Made by a program: the position numbers and the translations under genes. Of a stretch of 64,000 bases of DNA, positions 14,857 through 20,590 are shown one piece after another; positions within the stretch are counted from its first letter, which is position 1; each line of letters begins with the position of its first letter. Below the pieces are notes generated by a model that worked only from the letters and a program-made list of their open reading frames with translations, ran no database searches and had not been told where the DNA came from. This DNA comes from Edaphobacter aggregans DSM 19364 (GTDB lineage: Bacteria > Acidobacteriota > Terriglobia > Terriglobales > Acidobacteriaceae), in assembly GCF_000745965.1 (NCBI RefSeq), contig NZ_JQKI01000018.1, forward strand, positions 2,345 through 66,344. The letters are read 5' to 3'.

Positions 14857-14892
14857 GAGTTACCTTGAGTTTATCGTGAGTGGAACCCTTTG

Positions 14893-15501
14893 ATGATGAT
14901 GGGAATGAGCTGGGGCGAGCTTTTCCTGCTGGCGCTCGCCGCCTGGACCGCGGTGGGAGCGCTGGGAGTTACCGTGTCGTTGGCGCGGGGAGAGCGCACC
15001 CAAGCGAAGAGGCACATGGGCTGGATAGCGGCCGTCTGGCTCCTGTACCTGGCGATGCTCCTGACCGTATCGCTGACCGCCCGACCTCGCGAAGTGGCAG
15101 ACGGAAAGGATCAGTGCTTCCACGAGATATGCCTTGCCGTCGTGAAGACGGACGTGATGCCGGGCTACCTGGCACAGAACGGCGAGCGCGTGGTGCGGGC
15201 GACGGTCCGGATGACCAATCGGTCCGCCGTGAGGGCGCGCCGCGATACCGGACTGCGCGCGTACCTGATCGACGCGCAGGGCCGCAGCTGGCACGAGGTT
15301 CCAGGACTGGAGGGCGTGCGGCTGACGGCAACCGTCGCTCCGCGGGGCTCAGTCATGAGCCAGCCGGTGTTCAAGGTGCCACAGGATGCCACGGGCCTCG
15401 GGCTGGTCTTCACCCATGGCCGCGGCCTGCCCGGCGCACTGGTGATCGGAGGCCCCGACAGCCTGCTGCACCCCCTCGTCATCGTCCCGTTGCGGCTCTA
15501 A
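14893..15501 (+). CDS. Membrane-anchored hypothetical protein
   Basis: About 202 residues. The N-terminus has two hydrophobic helices (GELFLLALAAWTAVGALGVTV and WIAAVWLLYLAMLLTVSL) joined by a basic loop, followed by an exported beta-rich domain (VVRATVRMTNRSAVRARRD, YLIDAQGRSWHEVPG, GLGLVFTHGRGLPGALVIG). The pattern resembles DUF4352-like extracellular beta-sandwiches that follow an anchor, but I cannot name the family with confidence. Several in-frame starts (TTG 14890, ATG 14893, 14896, 14899, 14905) are clustered, so the exact first residue is open. It is divergent from the ABC ATPase, with 36 bases between the starts. Confidence 0.7.
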   Translation: MMMGMSWGELFLLALAAWTAVGALGVTVSLARGERTQAKRHMGWIAAVWLLYLAMLLTVSLTARPREVADGKDQCFHEICLAVVKTDVMPGYLAQNGERVVRATVRMTNRSAVRARRDTGLRAYLIDAQGRSWHEVPGLEGVRLTATVAPRGSVMSQPVFKVPQDATGLGLVFTHGRGLPGALVIGGPDSLLHPLVIVPLRL

Positions 15502-15632
15502 GCGACGCTCTGCCCTCAGTTCCGTTGACAATGTAGAGACACAAAAAACGAGAGAGATTTCTTTTTTTCTGCAAAAGATTGCGAATTGAAGCGACTTAGC
15601 GCTGCATCCTCCACATTTCAAAGGGCCATGAT

Positions 15633-15648
15633 TGGCATAGCAATTGCA
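15633..15648 (+). promoter_or_regulatory. Sigma54-type promoter ahead of the Fap-like locus
   Basis: TGGCAT-AGCAA-TTGCA matches the -24/-12 consensus TGGCAC-N5-TTGCA with one mismatch and exact spacing between the GG and GC doublets (10 bases). Transcription would start near 15660, leaving a leader of about 318 bases before the first gene. A sigma54 promoter needs an enhancer-binding activator, which I do not see encoded here. Confidence 0.6.
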
Positions 15649-15659
15649 CTTAACGGTCC

Positions 15660-15977
15660 CCGTGCTGTACGGGCTCATTCCACGACGACCTCGGGCTGGA
15701 TGCGACGTGGAGACGACACGACAAATGAATACCTTGAAGGGCTTCTGGCACGACTGGGATTACGAACGCAACTGATTGCAATTTGCCGGTTGCCTGCTGT
15801 TTTGCTCTTTTCCGGTTTCCTTGAGTTGAAGCCCTGAAGCAGATCCAGACACGCGATGCCCTGCCGCAAATGTTCCATGCGGAATACAGCGGCGTTTTGC
15901 TGGGCATCGGATTGGCCACTATGCGGCACGCGCCGCATAGACGGTGGAGCTTCGTCAACCAAGCCCTGGAGGCAGAA
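15660..15977 (+). other. Long leader of the Fap-like locus
   Basis: The stretch between the sigma54-like promoter and the first start codon has no convincing gene. It contains a perfect hairpin, CTATGCGGC-ACGC-GCCGCATAG (15919-15940), 37 bases upstream of the start. The hairpin could tune translation or stability. I recognise no known riboswitch class. Confidence 0.45.
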
Positions 15978-17240
15978 GTGAGAAAACTTGTTATCACACT
16001 AGTTGCAGCCTTAGTCGTCTCTGGCACGTCGTATGGTCAGAGCAATTCCAACGCAGGTACGGCGAAGAAGCAGAGCAAGACCAAAGCCCTGCGTGACAAC
16101 CAGATGGATCGCGTGACTGCGGCCGGCGAGGAAAATACGGCGGCGGCAGCCAACAACTCCACCGTGACGGAGACCAATACCGGATCCGTGACCGTAGGTG
16201 GAAGCGTATTGCAAGGAGCTGCTGGCATCAATATCGTCAACTCCTCCGACGCCTTGGTCGCCAATGGCGTTAACGTAGTCAGCGCTACCGCTGGTGGTGC
16301 TGACGTTAGCCAGAGCAACGACATCTCCCAGGACAGCGCGCAGACGGCGAAGATCAAAGGCTACACCCGCGGAGCCAATATCCACGCAACGCTCTCGAAG
16401 TCTTCCGACGTTACGAAGAGCTTCTCGAGCAGCAGCAGCCTCGATACGTCCGTCGACGCGTCGAAGACGCATGATAAGAGCCTGACTCTCAGCCACGAGA
16501 AGACTGCGAGCCTGTCGACCGACTTCAGCTCCAGCCACGACTCGTCGCTGGATAAGACCTCGAGCAAGTCGGCTTCCCTGAGCGCGAGCAAGAGCTTCGA
16601 CAAGTCGTCGGACAAGTCTCTGTCCGCTTCAGCCACCAACAACAAGTCGACGGATGCGTCGTTGTCCGCATCGGCTTCGAAGTCCCCCGACTCGTTTGAC
16701 GCCTCGCTGGACGCCTCGTTCAGCAAGTCGCATGACAAGTCGGCCTCGCTGGATGCTTCGTCCAGCAAGTCGGCCAGCAAGTCGGCTTCCCTCGATGCCT
16801 CGTTTTCGTCGGATAAAGCCTTCTCGAAGACCAACTCGAGCAGCAAATCGGCGAGCCTGGACGCAAGCAAGTCCACCCACGACACCGCGGCCGCGACCGA
16901 CAGCAAGAGCTCCACTTTCTCCGCGAGCCTCTCGAAGTCCAAGTCGAAGTCGTTTGACAGCCACTCGGTCAAGAGCCTGGACGCCACGCTTGACGTTGCC
17001 GGTGCAGTCTCCGTCGATTCCATATATGGCAAGAACATTGCCGTGGATGGATCGACAGTGACGGCGACCAACACCTACACGGTTGATCTCTCTGGCAGCG
17101 CGATGCAGGACGCCAAGGCGATCAACATCGTCAACGCAGCTGGCGGCATGGTTGCCAACGGCGTCAACGTGGCCCGTACGGCGAACATGAACTATTCTCC
17201 GTCGATCTGCCAGACCAACACCATCAGCCAGACCCGCTAA
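15978..17240 (+). CDS. Putative Fap-like fibre (functional amyloid) subunit
   Basis: A 420-residue secreted protein. Start GTG 15978 has GGAGG 5 bases upstream and gives the signal peptide VRKLVITLVAALVVSGTSYGQ. Two copies of a strand-rich unit flank the chain: repeat 1 near residues 60-127 (STVTETNTGSVTVGG, then AAGINIVNSSDALVANGVNV) and repeat 2 near 358-420 (STVTATNTYTVDLSG, then AKAINIVNAAGGMVANGVNV). Between them lie some 200 residues made almost only of Ser, Lys, Asp, Ala and Leu (KSASLDASxSKS units). Repeats separated by a variable linker, N-rich GVNV strands, and the C39 protease and barrel genes behind it fit the FapB/FapC fibril subunits of Pseudomonas. Only one C-terminal Cys (ICQTN) is present, not the CxxC of Fap proteins. 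Function is inferred. Confidence 0.65.
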   Translation: MRKLVITLVAALVVSGTSYGQSNSNAGTAKKQSKTKALRDNQMDRVTAAGEENTAAAANNSTVTETNTGSVTVGGSVLQGAAGINIVNSSDALVANGVNVVSATAGGADVSQSNDISQDSAQTAKIKGYTRGANIHATLSKSSDVTKSFSSSSSLDTSVDASKTHDKSLTLSHEKTASLSTDFSSSHDSSLDKTSSKSASLSASKSFDKSSDKSLSASATNNKSTDASLSASASKSPDSFDASLDASFSKSHDKSASLDASSSKSASKSASLDASFSSDKAFSKTNSSSKSASLDASKSTHDTAAATDSKSSTFSASLSKSKSKSFDSHSVKSLDATLDVAGAVSVDSIYGKNIAVDGSTVTATNTYTVDLSGSAMQDAKAINIVNAAGGMVANGVNVARTANMNYSPSICQTNTISQTR

Positions 17241-17313
17241 CGCGAGGCGGGTGTGCGAGGCAGATCGCCTCTCACACCCGTTCGCTGCTCTTCACTGGAT
17301 TCAAGGAGTGGTT

Positions 17314-17751
17314 ATGCGACGAATTCTCGTGATAGCGGGCGTGATGCTGCTGAGTTCGGCGGGCCTCGCCCAGACCGCGACCCCAACCAGGGTTCCGGTC
17401 GGGGCTCAGACCAGGGCCAAACCCATGCCGATGAGCGACGCTGCGCTGGACAAGGTAACGGCCGGAACCGTCTCGGCCGGTGTCTCGGACGGCGTAGTGA
17501 AGTTCCAGGGGCAGACACCGACACCGAACGGGCTGGTCTCGAGCAGCGGTTCGCTTGCTCTTCAGGGCAGCTCCATCACCAACACCACCACCGGTACGCT
17601 GAGCATCAGCGGCAACGCACAGCAGAATCTGAGCTCGCTGGTGAACATCAACGCAGTGAACTCGAAGATCAACGTCCTGATGAATTTCAACATCAACATC
17701 AACTCGACCGTGGGTACGCTCACGCAGTCGAACCTGAAGGGAATACACTGA
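17314..17751 (+). CDS. Small secreted companion of the Fap-like fibre protein
   Basis: A 145-residue protein from ATG 17314 with AAGGAG 5 bases upstream; signal peptide MRRILVIAGVMLLSSAGLAQ. The mature chain has MSDAALDKVTAG (about residues 41-52), which lines up with LRDNQMDRVTAAG of the large fibre protein, then beta-rich Gly/Ser/Thr/Asn sequence (GSSITNTTTGTLSISGNAQQ, SLVNINAVNSKINVLMNFNI). Size and composition fit a minor fibril component such as FapA/FapB, but direct homology is not proven. Its stop overlaps the next start (TGATG at 17749-17753), so it is co-translated with the protease gene. Confidence 0.6.
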   Translation: MRRILVIAGVMLLSSAGLAQTATPTRVPVGAQTRAKPMPMSDAALDKVTAGTVSAGVSDGVVKFQGQTPTPNGLVSSSGSLALQGSSITNTTTGTLSISGNAQQNLSSLVNINAVNSKINVLMNFNININSTVGTLTQSNLKGIH

Positions 17752-18452
17752 TGCACTTTCCGTCTCATTGGTTCAAGGGCTTGACCGGGACGCTCGTCAT
17801 CCTGATGGCGGGCGTCTCCCTTTGCCCTTCTTCCGCGCCGGCTCAAACCAGGGCCGACGCGGGAGTTCTTGGGGCTACCAAGAAGGTTCGCAGCATGAAA
17901 GAGATTCGCGGCGAGCGTGTCGTGCGGCAGAAGTGGGAGATGAGCTGCGGAGCCGCCGCATTGAGCACGTTGCTGACCTACGAGTTCAAAGACAACACAC
18001 CGGAGACCGCGATCGTCGTGTGGATTCTGCATCGCGTAGATCCGGTGCGGGTAAGAGCGCGCGGCGGCTTCTCGCTGCTCGACCTCAAACGCTTCGCACA
18101 GGCCCGCGGCTACACCGCCGAGGGCTTCACCGGCATGTCGATGGAGGAGCTTGCAGCCGAGAAGTCCTCCGTCATCGTTCCCATACGGATTAAAGGCTTC
18201 GATCACTTCGTCGTCGTCCGAGGCATCGCCGACGGTCGCGTGGATATCGCGGACCCGGGCTTCGGCAACATCACGATGCGTGTCGATCGCTTCCAGACGT
18301 TGTGGAAGGAGGGGATCGTCTTCATCGTGCATCCTCCGAGCGATCTGATGATGACCGAACAGAAGCCCCTGATGTCCTCGCAGATCGTTCCGGACGCAAC
18401 CATTATTCAGCGGGGCATCGGGACGGCACTCCCGGCCAACATGCTCTATTAG
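17751..18452 (+). CDS. C39-like cysteine peptidase (FapD-like)
   Basis: A 233-residue protein with a signal peptide or anchor (LTGTLVILMAGVSLCPSSAPAQ) and a papain-like C39 fold: catalytic Cys in QKWEMSCGAAALSTLL, His in IKGFDHFVVVRG and Asp in VDIADPGFG. C39 peptidases cleave after double-Gly-type leaders; free-standing exported members occur in Fap amyloid operons (FapD), where they sit just before the outer-membrane exporter as here. The start ATG 17751 overlaps the stop of the preceding gene. A candidate substrate site is the VTAG/VTAAG motif shared by the two upstream proteins. The catalytic set is complete; the role is inferred from context. Confidence 0.8.
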   Translation: MHFPSHWFKGLTGTLVILMAGVSLCPSSAPAQTRADAGVLGATKKVRSMKEIRGERVVRQKWEMSCGAAALSTLLTYEFKDNTPETAIVVWILHRVDPVRVRARGGFSLLDLKRFAQARGYTAEGFTGMSMEELAAEKSSVIVPIRIKGFDHFVVVRGIADGRVDIADPGFGNITMRVDRFQTLWKEGIVFIVHPPSDLMMTEQKPLMSSQIVPDATIIQRGIGTALPANMLY

Positions 18453-18514
18453 CAAAACGCAGTTCCGTCATGCAGAGTCTCGGTGCAGTCTTCAACAGGG
18501 GAAAGGCGGGCTCG

Positions 18515-19930
18515 ATGTCGCAACAACGGGTGAGAAGATACGGCGCGAGGCTGTTGTGCGTCGCGGTATTGCTGTGGGCCGCAGGCATCGCATCGGCGGA
18601 ACAGGCGGGCGAGGGCGGACAGAGCCCCCAGGCAGAGCACACTGCACAGGTCGAGGTGGCACAGGCACAGCAGGTGGCACAGGCGCAGCAGGCGCCGGCG
18701 CAGGCCCAGCAGACCTCCGCTCAGGCCCCGGCGCGGATACAGGATCCGATGGCCGTCGCCATCAATCAGCGTCTCCAGGATGCTCTGCGCGAACGCGACG
18801 CCATCATCCGCAATCTGCTGGAGCGCGTGCAGGAACTGGAGTGGAGGGTGAATGGAGGCTTCACCACCTCACCGAAGGATATGATGGCGGTGAATCCGGG
18901 AGCGAGCGGCCAGCCAGGCTCGAACAGCCCGGCCGTGCGCGTGGGAGCGTCGTCATCGGTGACCTCCGTGGTCACCAACTCTGGCTATGACGCCGAGGAA
19001 CGGCAGGCGACACAGGCGCTCGACCAGGCGCTGATCGTGCGCGGCGGCCTTCTGCTGCCCAACGGAACGTTGGAGATCGACCACTCGACCTCGTACTTTA
19101 ACTCGTCCTCGGACCGCATCAACATCAACGGCTTCGCTATTCTGCCCGTCCTCGTCGTCGGCGATATCGCGTCGCAGCGCATCCGCAAGGACCTGCTGCT
19201 GCCCACCTTCAGCACGCGCCTGGGCCTGCCCTACCGGCTGCAGTTCGAGGCCTACGTCCCCTACGGTTATGAGGTCTTTCGCACGGTCGATGCCAACAAT
19301 CTGCAGACCTCGCAGAGCACCTTCGGGCTTGGCGATCTCACCTTCGGGCTCTCGCGGCAGCTTGTCTTCGAACACACCAAATGGCCTGACCTGCTGGCAA
19401 ACGTGCGCTTCAAGACGACCACCGGCGTCGACAGTTTCAACCTCAGCAGCAGCCAGACCGCCCTGGGAACGGGCTTCTACGCCGTACAGGGCAACCTCAC
19501 CGCGGCCAAGTCCAACGACCCGGTCGTCTTCTTCGGAAACCTCTCCTACACGGCGAACCTGAACGGAACCCACACGGTCTCTGCGAACGATCCGAACAAT
19601 CCCGATCTGAAGATCCCCGGTCACTTTGAACCGGGCGACTCGGTCGGCTTCCAGCTCGGGTCGATCCTTGCATTGAACCCGGAGACCTCGATGACCATCG
19701 GCTGGGACCAGCGCTTCACCCGTTCGACGACTCTGAACGGGCAGAACATTCCTGCGTCGTATCTCGTCGAGGGCTCGCTGCGTCTCGGTGCCTCGTACCT
19801 CTATGCGCCAGGCAGGACCATCGACCTGAGCTTCGGCGTGGGACTGACGCCGGACACTCCTAACCTCCAGTTCTCGGTTGGACTCCCGTTCCGCCGCGCG
19901 CTGTGGAAACCCAAAGCCCGCGTGTACTGA
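18515..19930 (+). CDS. Outer-membrane beta-barrel with N-terminal coiled coil (FapF-like)
   Basis: About 471 residues from ATG 18515 (MSQQRVRRYGARLLC); ATG 18470 in the same frame is an alternative. Order of parts: signal peptide (LLCVAVLLWAAGIASA), a Gln/Ala-rich linker (QAQQVAQAQQAPAQAQQ), a predicted coiled coil INQRLQDALRERDAIIRNLL with ERVQELEWRV, then a barrel of alternating strands ending in FSVGLPFRRALWKPKARVY with the aromatic outer-membrane-type C-terminus. The layout (signal, coiled coil, roughly 300-residue barrel) is that of FapF, the trimeric amyloid secretion pore. It resembles generic MetA-pathway/transporter barrels too, so the assignment leans on the operon. Confidence 0.7.
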   Translation: MSQQRVRRYGARLLCVAVLLWAAGIASAEQAGEGGQSPQAEHTAQVEVAQAQQVAQAQQAPAQAQQTSAQAPARIQDPMAVAINQRLQDALRERDAIIRNLLERVQELEWRVNGGFTTSPKDMMAVNPGASGQPGSNSPAVRVGASSSVTSVVTNSGYDAEERQATQALDQALIVRGGLLLPNGTLEIDHSTSYFNSSSDRININGFAILPVLVVGDIASQRIRKDLLLPTFSTRLGLPYRLQFEAYVPYGYEVFRTVDANNLQTSQSTFGLGDLTFGLSRQLVFEHTKWPDLLANVRFKTTTGVDSFNLSSSQTALGTGFYAVQGNLTAAKSNDPVVFFGNLSYTANLNGTHTVSANDPNNPDLKIPGHFEPGDSVGFQLGSILALNPETSMTIGWDQRFTRSTTLNGQNIPASYLVEGSLRLGASYLYAPGRTIDLSFGVGLTPDTPNLQFSVGLPFRRALWKPKARVY

Positions 19931-20125
19931 ACCGCGACGCGTTTCCTGTGGCTCAAGCAGCCGGGGAAACATCGGAAGACAGGGAAAATCACAATCTGAT
20001 GACAACTCCGTGACACTTATCCGTCGCGGCGAGGCTAGTGTGGTTTCGTCGCTGGGTAAGTGCGACTCTCCTCCCCGTTGCGGAGAGAGGACGACCTTGT
20101 TCCTGCACAGGTTTTCCGTTCTTTT

Positions 20126-20169
20126 GGCGATGGAGTATGCATTGGGCGATGCTCCATCGCCTTTTTTTT
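20126..20169 (+). terminator. Terminator downstream of the Fap-like locus
   Basis: GGCGATGGAG (20126-20135) and CTCCATCGCC (20152-20161) form a perfect 10-bp stem with eight Ts after it. It lies 196 bases after the barrel gene stop. It is read on the plus strand and so ends that transcript before the convergent gene at 20174. The rest of 19931-20173 shows nothing else I can support. Confidence 0.85.
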
Positions 20170-20173
20170 GCGC

Positions 20174-20590
20174 TCAAGCCGGAGCGCTGCCCGCCGAGAG
20201 TAGCGAGTGAAGCGTCAGGTCCTCAATAAAACTGATCTCCAACCGCAGCGTCAGGATCTGGCCCAGGTCGGCCACCGTTGCTGCGTTCTTCCGGCAGTTG
20301 CACTGGTCCGTGAGGGCAAGGGGCGAGGCGCGCGTCAGCTCAAGCCCCGCGGCGATGATGGAGCCGTAGAGATCGACGATAGAGCGAAGCTGCACCTCCA
20401 CACGGAACTCAACGGCGCTCGCCGAGAGCGTGCGCCGGTCGAGCACCCAGCCGCCGCAGTCTGCCAGCGCGCCGAGAACGTCAGGAAGCACATTGGCGCG
20501 GTCGTCGTAACTGAAGCTCTGGAGGTCGAGCGTTGGCAGGAAAGGCTTCTGGCTGCCGGGCTTGGAGTCATGCGTCATTACGCTCTTCAT
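20174..20590 (-). CDS. Conserved-looking hypothetical protein
   Basis: About 138 residues from ATG 20590; ATG 20578 is equally possible, and neither has a strong ribosome site. The sequence is globular and alpha-beta in feel (FLPTLDLQSFSYDDRANVLP, LGALADCGGWVLDRRTLSAS, AVEFRVEVQLRSIVDLYGSI, LGQILTLRLEISFIEDLTLH). Alternating strands and the closing acidic helix suggest a small ferredoxin-like or ACT-like regulatory domain, but I cannot assign a family. It is divergent from acpS. Confidence 0.6.
   Translation of the reverse strand: MKSVMTHDSKPGSQKPFLPTLDLQSFSYDDRANVLPDVLGALADCGGWVLDRRTLSASAVEFRVEVQLRSIVDLYGSIIAAGLELTRASPLALTDQCNCRKNAATVADLGQILTLRLEISFIEDLTLHSLLSAGSAPA

Follow-up and report, generated by a model that had tools for sequence, protein, structure and literature searches.

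Is a locus that resembles the Fap functional amyloid operon of Pseudomonas, found in an acidobacterium, a Fap operon or a relative with a design of its own, and which exported protein does its C39 peptidase cut? The locus lies in a stretch of 64,000 nucleotides of Edaphobacter aggregans DSM 19364 (contig NZ_JQKI01000018.1, positions 2,345 to 66,344 of the forward strand; hereafter the window), from an acidobacterial assembly of 8.18 Mb with an estimated contamination of 7.2%. A preliminary description, made from the letters of this DNA, had proposed four co-directed genes, and all four are found on the + strand (15978-19930, by the open reading frames, ORFs, of the window). The segment it gave, from 15633, begins upstream of gene 1, whose most likely start is the GTG at 15978; a GGAGG lies at 15968-15972, and the orthologues start there too. 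We lean towards the view that this cassette is an export system for fibre subunits of the FapD/FapF type, on a branch of its own. To a more specific proposal we give an even chance: that in this apparently undescribed branch, which comprises acidobacteria together with several proteobacterial or desulfobacterial lineages, a periplasmic C39 peptidase cleaves a leader of the double-glycine type off the fibre subunits themselves. The evidence consists of homologies, synteny, a leader register, homologous modules, a stem-loop and a clade, all established at the level of sequence. The elements of the cassette are as follows.

15978..17240, + strand: gene 1, exported two-module repeat protein with a FapC-like layout and syntenic orthologues
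16089..16124, + strand: C39-type leader register of gene 1 (LRDNQMDRVTAA), which follows the Sec signal and is conserved better than any other stretch of the gene
16128..16346, + strand: module N of gene 1, Asn/Gln-patterned, from orthologue conservation and module homology
16347..16976, + strand: variable Ser-rich linker of gene 1, nearly absent in the orthologue L022/L035
16977..17237, + strand: module C of gene 1, homologous to module N by module profile
17314..17751, + strand: gene 2, small exported protein of 145 residues with a module-like C-terminus (AQQNLSSLVNINAVNS...)
17431..17466, + strand: C39-type leader register of gene 2 (MSDAALDKVTAG), after the Sec signal
17751..18452, + strand: gene 3, exported stand-alone C39 peptidase, FapD/FilB-like, with Cys/His/Asp intact
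18515..19930 (probable), + strand: gene 4, N-terminal helix followed by a FapF-type outer-membrane barrel

Gene 3, which overlaps the stop codon of gene 2 (TGATG), carries a C39 domain (Pfam PF03412, E=1.3e-16), and Cys65, His151 and Asp167 of its product, P0003, are invariant in 21/21 aligned relatives. Both observations bear out the free-standing C39-like protease with an intact Cys/His/Asp set that had been read from the letters; that it is exported, as was also claimed, is judged from a Sec-like N-terminal sequence. The best-scoring NCBIfam model for gene 3 is FilB (E=1e-33, 117 bits, cut-off 475), and FapD matches as well (E=6e-29, 101 bits, cut-off 330). Gene 4 is a homologue of the solved FapF barrel (phmmer E=5e-21; profile E=4e-30) and matches the NCBIfam models FapF (E=3e-26, 92 bits, cut-off 700) and FilC (51 bits, cut-off 630), each of these NCBIfam scores lying below its cut-off. 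Ahead of the barrel, a helix-like stretch, LRERDAIIRNLLER, is invariant in 10/10 and likely forms a coiled coil. The predicted outer-membrane barrel thus holds, with a likely coiled coil before it, and the barrel is not closest to an unrelated transporter family, which would have told against the prediction. The features of the FapD/FapF superfamily are found side by side here: an exported stand-alone C39 peptidase with Cys/His/Asp, an adjacent FapF-homologous barrel with an N-terminal stretch that reads as a coiled coil, and a neighbouring exported protein with a C39-type leader register, the last recognised by a pattern composed post hoc.

The place of the cassette within this superfamily was read from two trees of 46 proteins each, one for the barrel and one for C39. 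The acidobacterial cassettes and those from outside the phylum form one clade (100/99 for the barrel, 98/98 for C39); 15 Fap rows fall on the other side of a branch (100/99 and 87/98, respectively), and four Fil-like rows (L155-L158) stand apart, in each tree on a long branch of their own. In the barrel tree the nearest named relatives are Edaphobacter modestus and the Acidobacteriaceae isolates TAA 166 and KBS 146. The labels Fap and Fil are ours and were given by gene neighbourhood, L143 and L074 being the only loci so labelled that were checked with the NCBIfam models, so that the Fil-like label of L155-L158 is a matter of neighbourhood. The trees are unrooted, and therefore no branching order is claimed; by these trees the cassette is a sister clade within the FapD/FapF superfamily, with its own branch.

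What the peptidase cuts is suggested by a short register that follows the Sec-like signal in both gene 1 and gene 2. It fits the double-glycine type at -12, -7 and -4 (hydrophobic), and it can be written as the strict pattern [LIMV]x[DEN]xx[LMIF]xx[VILMT]x[GAS][GASRQK]; a looser form does without the acidic position. The strict pattern is found in 36/36 subunits of 18 acidobacterial loci, which are close relatives and not independent (the count left out L026, which is degraded, L037, at a contig end, and seven loci repeating genomes already counted). It occurs in 22/475 Sec-like background ORFs (ORFs called mechanically, many of them not genes) and in 1.1% of shuffles; the C39 and barrel proteins of these operons lack it (0/46). 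The leader is more strongly supported by relatives in other phyla than by the acidobacterial count: gene 2 of relatives outside the Acidobacteriota has the same register. Among 19 proteobacterial substrates, a crude signal rule recognised 10 (10 with the looser register, 7 with the strict one) and missed 9; of the latter, two, from L045 and L049, seem incomplete, and on visual inspection the register is present in the remaining seven, in one case with a Pro at -2.

In Fap loci the register sits on another partner. FapD activity is required for FapC secretion, and its target was given as unclear, with FapE suspected, in 2017 (PMC5557850) and as yet to be determined in 2018 (PMC6173800); in a 2025 review, FapD is thought to process FapE and FapF (PMC12822426). 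Statements from the literature, here and below, rest on excerpts of the papers cited (further basis: PMC7716237, PMC6363468, PMC12392863). The protein in the FapE position, between C39 and barrel, carries the register in 14/15 Fap loci, 11 of them in the strict form (17 ORFs lie between these two genes in the 15 loci, and L154 has no such ORF), and the FapB/FapC repeat proteins show the strict register in 0/24 cases and the looser one in 1/24. Proteins in the FapA position, upstream of the repeat genes in Fap loci L141, L143, L144, L149 and L166, also carry a C39-type register (for example LSDGDFASVASG); they are a possible second target of FapD. The leader register also occurs in neighbour proteins of two Fil-like loci, L155 and L156. 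In the acidobacterial cassette, it is the fibre subunits themselves that the gene 3 protease would trim.

The gene 1 product, of about 420 residues, had been described as a large repeat protein with a signal peptide. It is indeed an exported repeat protein, more exactly one in which a Sec-like signal and the short conserved leader are followed by two homologous modules (approximately residues 53-125 and 336-422 in P0001, a numbering that counts 2 residues ahead of the GTG) around a variable Ser-rich linker of about half the gene. A module-C profile matches the N modules in 9/10 sequences (E=2e-15 to 1e-11); the tenth, from L022, scores higher because its stretch extends into module C. Compared with 13 orthologues, the leader is 75% identical, each module 58%, the signal 46% and the linker 28%, and total ORF lengths across the orthologues run from 238 to 703 residues. 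L022/L035, which are one locus, hold a natural gene 1 orthologue of 238 residues that is almost free of linker; it retains the leader and both modules and, being compact, would suit structural work. The C-terminal end of gene 2 resembles the pooled gene 1 modules (profile comparison, probability 77%). Asn or Gln occupies 10/23 invariant module positions, against 17% overall (hypergeometric p=0.001), and 6/18 invariant positions of gene 2 (p=0.03), with no such excess at the invariant positions of C39 or barrel. This pattern, together with the FapC-like arrangement of conserved modules about a variable linker, speaks for fibre proteins. Searches of genes 1 and 2 in Pfam, NCBIfam, PHROGs and PDB sequences gave nothing significant. 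The published Fap repeat pattern X15GX4NX3GX6NX7 (PMC3792158) has no match in gene 1 and one uncalibrated match in gene 2.

Several observations count against the reading of the cassette as an exporter of fibre subunits. A profile of 61 Fap repeats is not significant with the subunits (best E 0.083, like shuffles), hhalign gives the modules against Fap repeats a probability of 0.6-1.0%, and in seven tests the modules are only weakly above shuffles against Fap repeats (z 1.3-3.7, with 1 to 23 of 200 shuffles equally good). AlphaFold models of gene 2 and of the linker-poor gene 1 orthologue have low confidence (mean predicted local distance difference test, pLDDT, 58 and 43), and therefore no fold supports fibres, nor do the models speak for the globular repeats that would have told against the preliminary description. 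As to the leader, the patterns were composed after the sequences had been seen, the looser register is common (106/475 background ORFs, 12.5% of shuffles), and position -2 is Ala where Gly is usual, which makes the exact cut uncertain. No FapE-like anchor or FapA-like chaperone is seen in the cassette, and one characterised C39/barrel relative serves bacteriocin-like peptides (PMC11798529). That the products of genes 1 and 2 would form amyloid, cross-beta fibres is thus an argument by analogy, since they do not conform to the Fap repeat pattern and profile, their similarity to Fap repeats is weak and their pLDDT is low.

With the same export route, the products might instead serve as surface adhesins or form a brush, without being amyloid; the modules would anchor or oligomerise, and the Ser-rich linker would act as a flexible stalk. 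A linker that takes up such a share of gene 1, is rich in Ser and is poorly conserved would suit this reading, and so would the poor AlphaFold models and the presence of two modules only, Fap having almost always three repeats (PMC12822426). This sits badly with the near absence of the linker from L022/L035, where the modules are kept, with the conserved Asn/Gln pattern of the modules and with gene 2, which resembles a module without a stalk; we regard adhesins as a tentative possibility, well short of even.

Whether the cassette is Fap can be asked gene by gene. With fapABCDEF of Pseudomonas and relatives it shares repeat proteins, an exported C39 peptidase and a coiled-coil FapF barrel, in the same order; it differs in that no fapA or fapE is seen, that two non-canonical modules stand in place of three Fap repeats, that the leader register is on the subunits and not on the FapE-position protein, and that it forms a separate clade. 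The gap between gene 3 and gene 4 (18452-18515) leaves no room for fapE, and the FapE model is silent across the genome, as it likewise is in every control genome. Profile searches against the Fap families, which the preliminary description had proposed as a check, gave FapD and FapF matches, but below the cut-offs, and nothing significant for the repeats. The control Fap operon L143, from the search of Pseudomonadota genomes, passes the FapB, FapC, FapD, FapE and FapF cut-offs (FapD 416, FapF 765 bits); missing those for FapD and FapF would not by itself exclude Fap, since an Aeromonas Fap operon, L074, misses both (FapD 249/330, FapF 371/700 bits). A reduced Fap operon was rejected on the FapD and FapF scores far below the cut-offs, the lack of any visible fapA or fapE in the cassette, the failure of gene 1 in the repeat tests and the position of the clade outside Fap; what stands of the Fap-like locus first described is a FapF-homologous barrel, a FapD-like protease and genes that keep together. 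A true Fap operon that has diverged, with fapA and fapE lost and the repeats drifted, appears unlikely: the same kinds of genes in the same order (repeat, repeat, C39, barrel) and the residue-level similarity of the modules to Fap repeats, weak as it is, speak for such an origin, and against it stand the trees, the leader on the repeat proteins and the Fap-repeat profile. The cassette probably works like Fap export, yet is not Fap. The view that Fap was confined to Proteobacteria, so that an acidobacterial version would be new, was overstated, co-located fapD/fapF homologues having been reported in 2018 from five phyla beyond Proteobacteria (PMC6173800); among the matches listed from the open PMC literature, which are a part of the whole, none names an acidobacterial Fap.

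The Fil system of Acinetobacter is known here by the names that NCBIfam and GenBank records give it; a search of the literature on FilB/FilC gave no result. It resembles the cassette in that FilB is the top model for gene 3 and FilC matches gene 4; the scores are nevertheless far under the Fil cut-offs, and the Fil-like rows are on a separate branch. In L075, an Acinetobacter record from a plasmid collection, a FilB-like C39 gene is split over two ORFs.

The genes of the cassette are kept together, as their reading as one locus demanded: the four-gene synteny is found at 9 loci in 8 related genomes. An alignment scan of named genomes with gene 2 gave 23 loci, of which 16 are acidobacterial (Edaphobacter, Granulicella and kin), have the four genes in order, one being cut at a contig end, and in 7/16 cases duplicate loci of the synteny set. 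The other seven (L043-L049) come from metagenome-assembled genomes (MAGs) of Gammaproteobacteria, Desulfobulbaceae, Deltaproteobacteria and "Proteobacteria", six MAGs in all, and from Ectothiorhodospira haloalkaliphila. They belong to the same clade and have homologous modules, a small protein, C39, a barrel and one or two repeat proteins; they differ in that 5/7 encode a pair of large repeat proteins whose central region is different, in that the repeat genes of L044 are on the other strand, and in that the stem-loop before gene 2 is missing from all six junctions examined. The barrel was found in 17/396 genomes of the phylum (14 in the genus, 1 in the same family, 2 distant and weaker). The gene 2 profile, run on 398 Pseudomonadota genomes with at most 10 candidates scored per genome, found the centre genome only, which is weak evidence of rarity.

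Within the genus, gene 2 is present in 27/62 genomes, the window's own included. Such patchiness, and the precedent of the Nap island of Neisseria (NapA-C, NapP, NapF), where a C39 peptidase and a FapF-like channel likewise go with GG-leader substrates (PMC11798529), would agree with a cassette whose exported proteins have their effect on other cells or on kin. However, the Nap substrates are, by description, small cationic peptides promoting autolysis, whereas genes 2 and 1 encode repeat proteins 145 and about 420 residues long, neither of which is a peptide below 10 kDa, and the cassette has no further gene as a candidate for immunity; we consider an action on other cells very unlikely.

Empty sites, copies elsewhere and degraded copies mark the cassette as an accessory locus, one which can be lost and which occupies more than one location. 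It is flanked by an uncharacterised gene (14890-15501) and by a minus-strand gene beside acpS, flanks that are common to 10/15 acidobacterial loci compared, 5/15 having none of them. Of 13 genomes examined at the acpS region, seven have the two flanking genes separated by 14-526 bases that contain no cassette (G412, G011, G426, G432, G001, G023 and G428); G001 and G023 hold a cassette elsewhere, and G428 a gene 2 elsewhere. In G076 (L176) the usual site holds only a C-terminal remnant of gene 4, and in the other five genomes the flank 14890-15501 was not found. L026 (G012) is a degraded copy, with gene 4 in fragments and genes 2 and 3 not found beside it.

More widely, a C39 gene accompanies FapF-like barrels in 38/40 stretches around them, these stretches coming mostly from the stronger matches. 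Another layout is seen at 10 of the 40 loci (L132, L134-L138, L142, L147, L164 and L167), with a shorter FapF-like barrel and, close by, a C39 gene in the opposite orientation; at 8 of the 10 a regulator-like protein of 440-480 residues adjoins the barrel, and L167 is from a distant acidobacterial family. Plasmid-borne C39/barrel cassettes of another branch occur in Alphaproteobacteria (L072 and L076, on Croceicoccus and Polymorphobacter plasmids); their repeat proteins are rich in Asn, and leader-like stretches occur in them, for example ITDYELATMRGG.

Two further elements are candidates for regulation.

17242..17285, + strand: stem-loop between genes 1 and 2, without a U-run (z=-4.4)
20144..20169, + strand: terminator-like hairpin with a T-run, 3' of gene 4 (4 such sites in the region against 3.8 expected from shuffles)

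The survey of the stem-loop covered 24 junctions, L044 being left out for its repeat genes on the other strand. It is present in 18/18 acidobacterial loci examined (17 with z <= -2.5; L022 with z -1.5) and missing from the six junctions outside the phylum (z -0.6 to 0.7). Its structure seems conserved, since the sequence differs from locus to locus. It may stabilise the gene 1 mRNA or attenuate the remaining genes. A search of 15400-20300 against Rfam gave no match, and a promoter scan found none.

A pathway for the export of fibre subunits can be proposed from these elements. The products of genes 1 and 2 would cross the inner membrane by Sec; the periplasmic gene 3 peptidase would recognise the helical leader (hydrophobic at -12, -7 and -4, small at -2/-1) and cleave it; and the trimmed, unfolded subunits would leave through the gene 4 barrel, with the coiled coil as a gate. 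Outside, they would assemble with gene 1 as the major subunit and gene 2 as a minor or nucleating one, the stem-loop after gene 1 probably raising its mRNA above that of the other genes.

If this is true, one rule would hold across the superfamily, namely that the C39 peptidase cuts whichever exported partner bears the leader: FapE in Fap, the repeat subunits here and, in Fil-like loci, other neighbours. As a candidate site, the register is short and strongly conserved; it accompanies the enzyme in different phyla, and in sister systems it is carried by different partners. Its presence on the subunits is the most useful part of the finding, because it turns the open question of the FapD target into a direct assay, the register giving exact mutants and a peptide assay. 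Profile searches based on Fap repeats would miss a four-gene pathway of this kind, by which a common soil group would gain a candidate matrix fibre.

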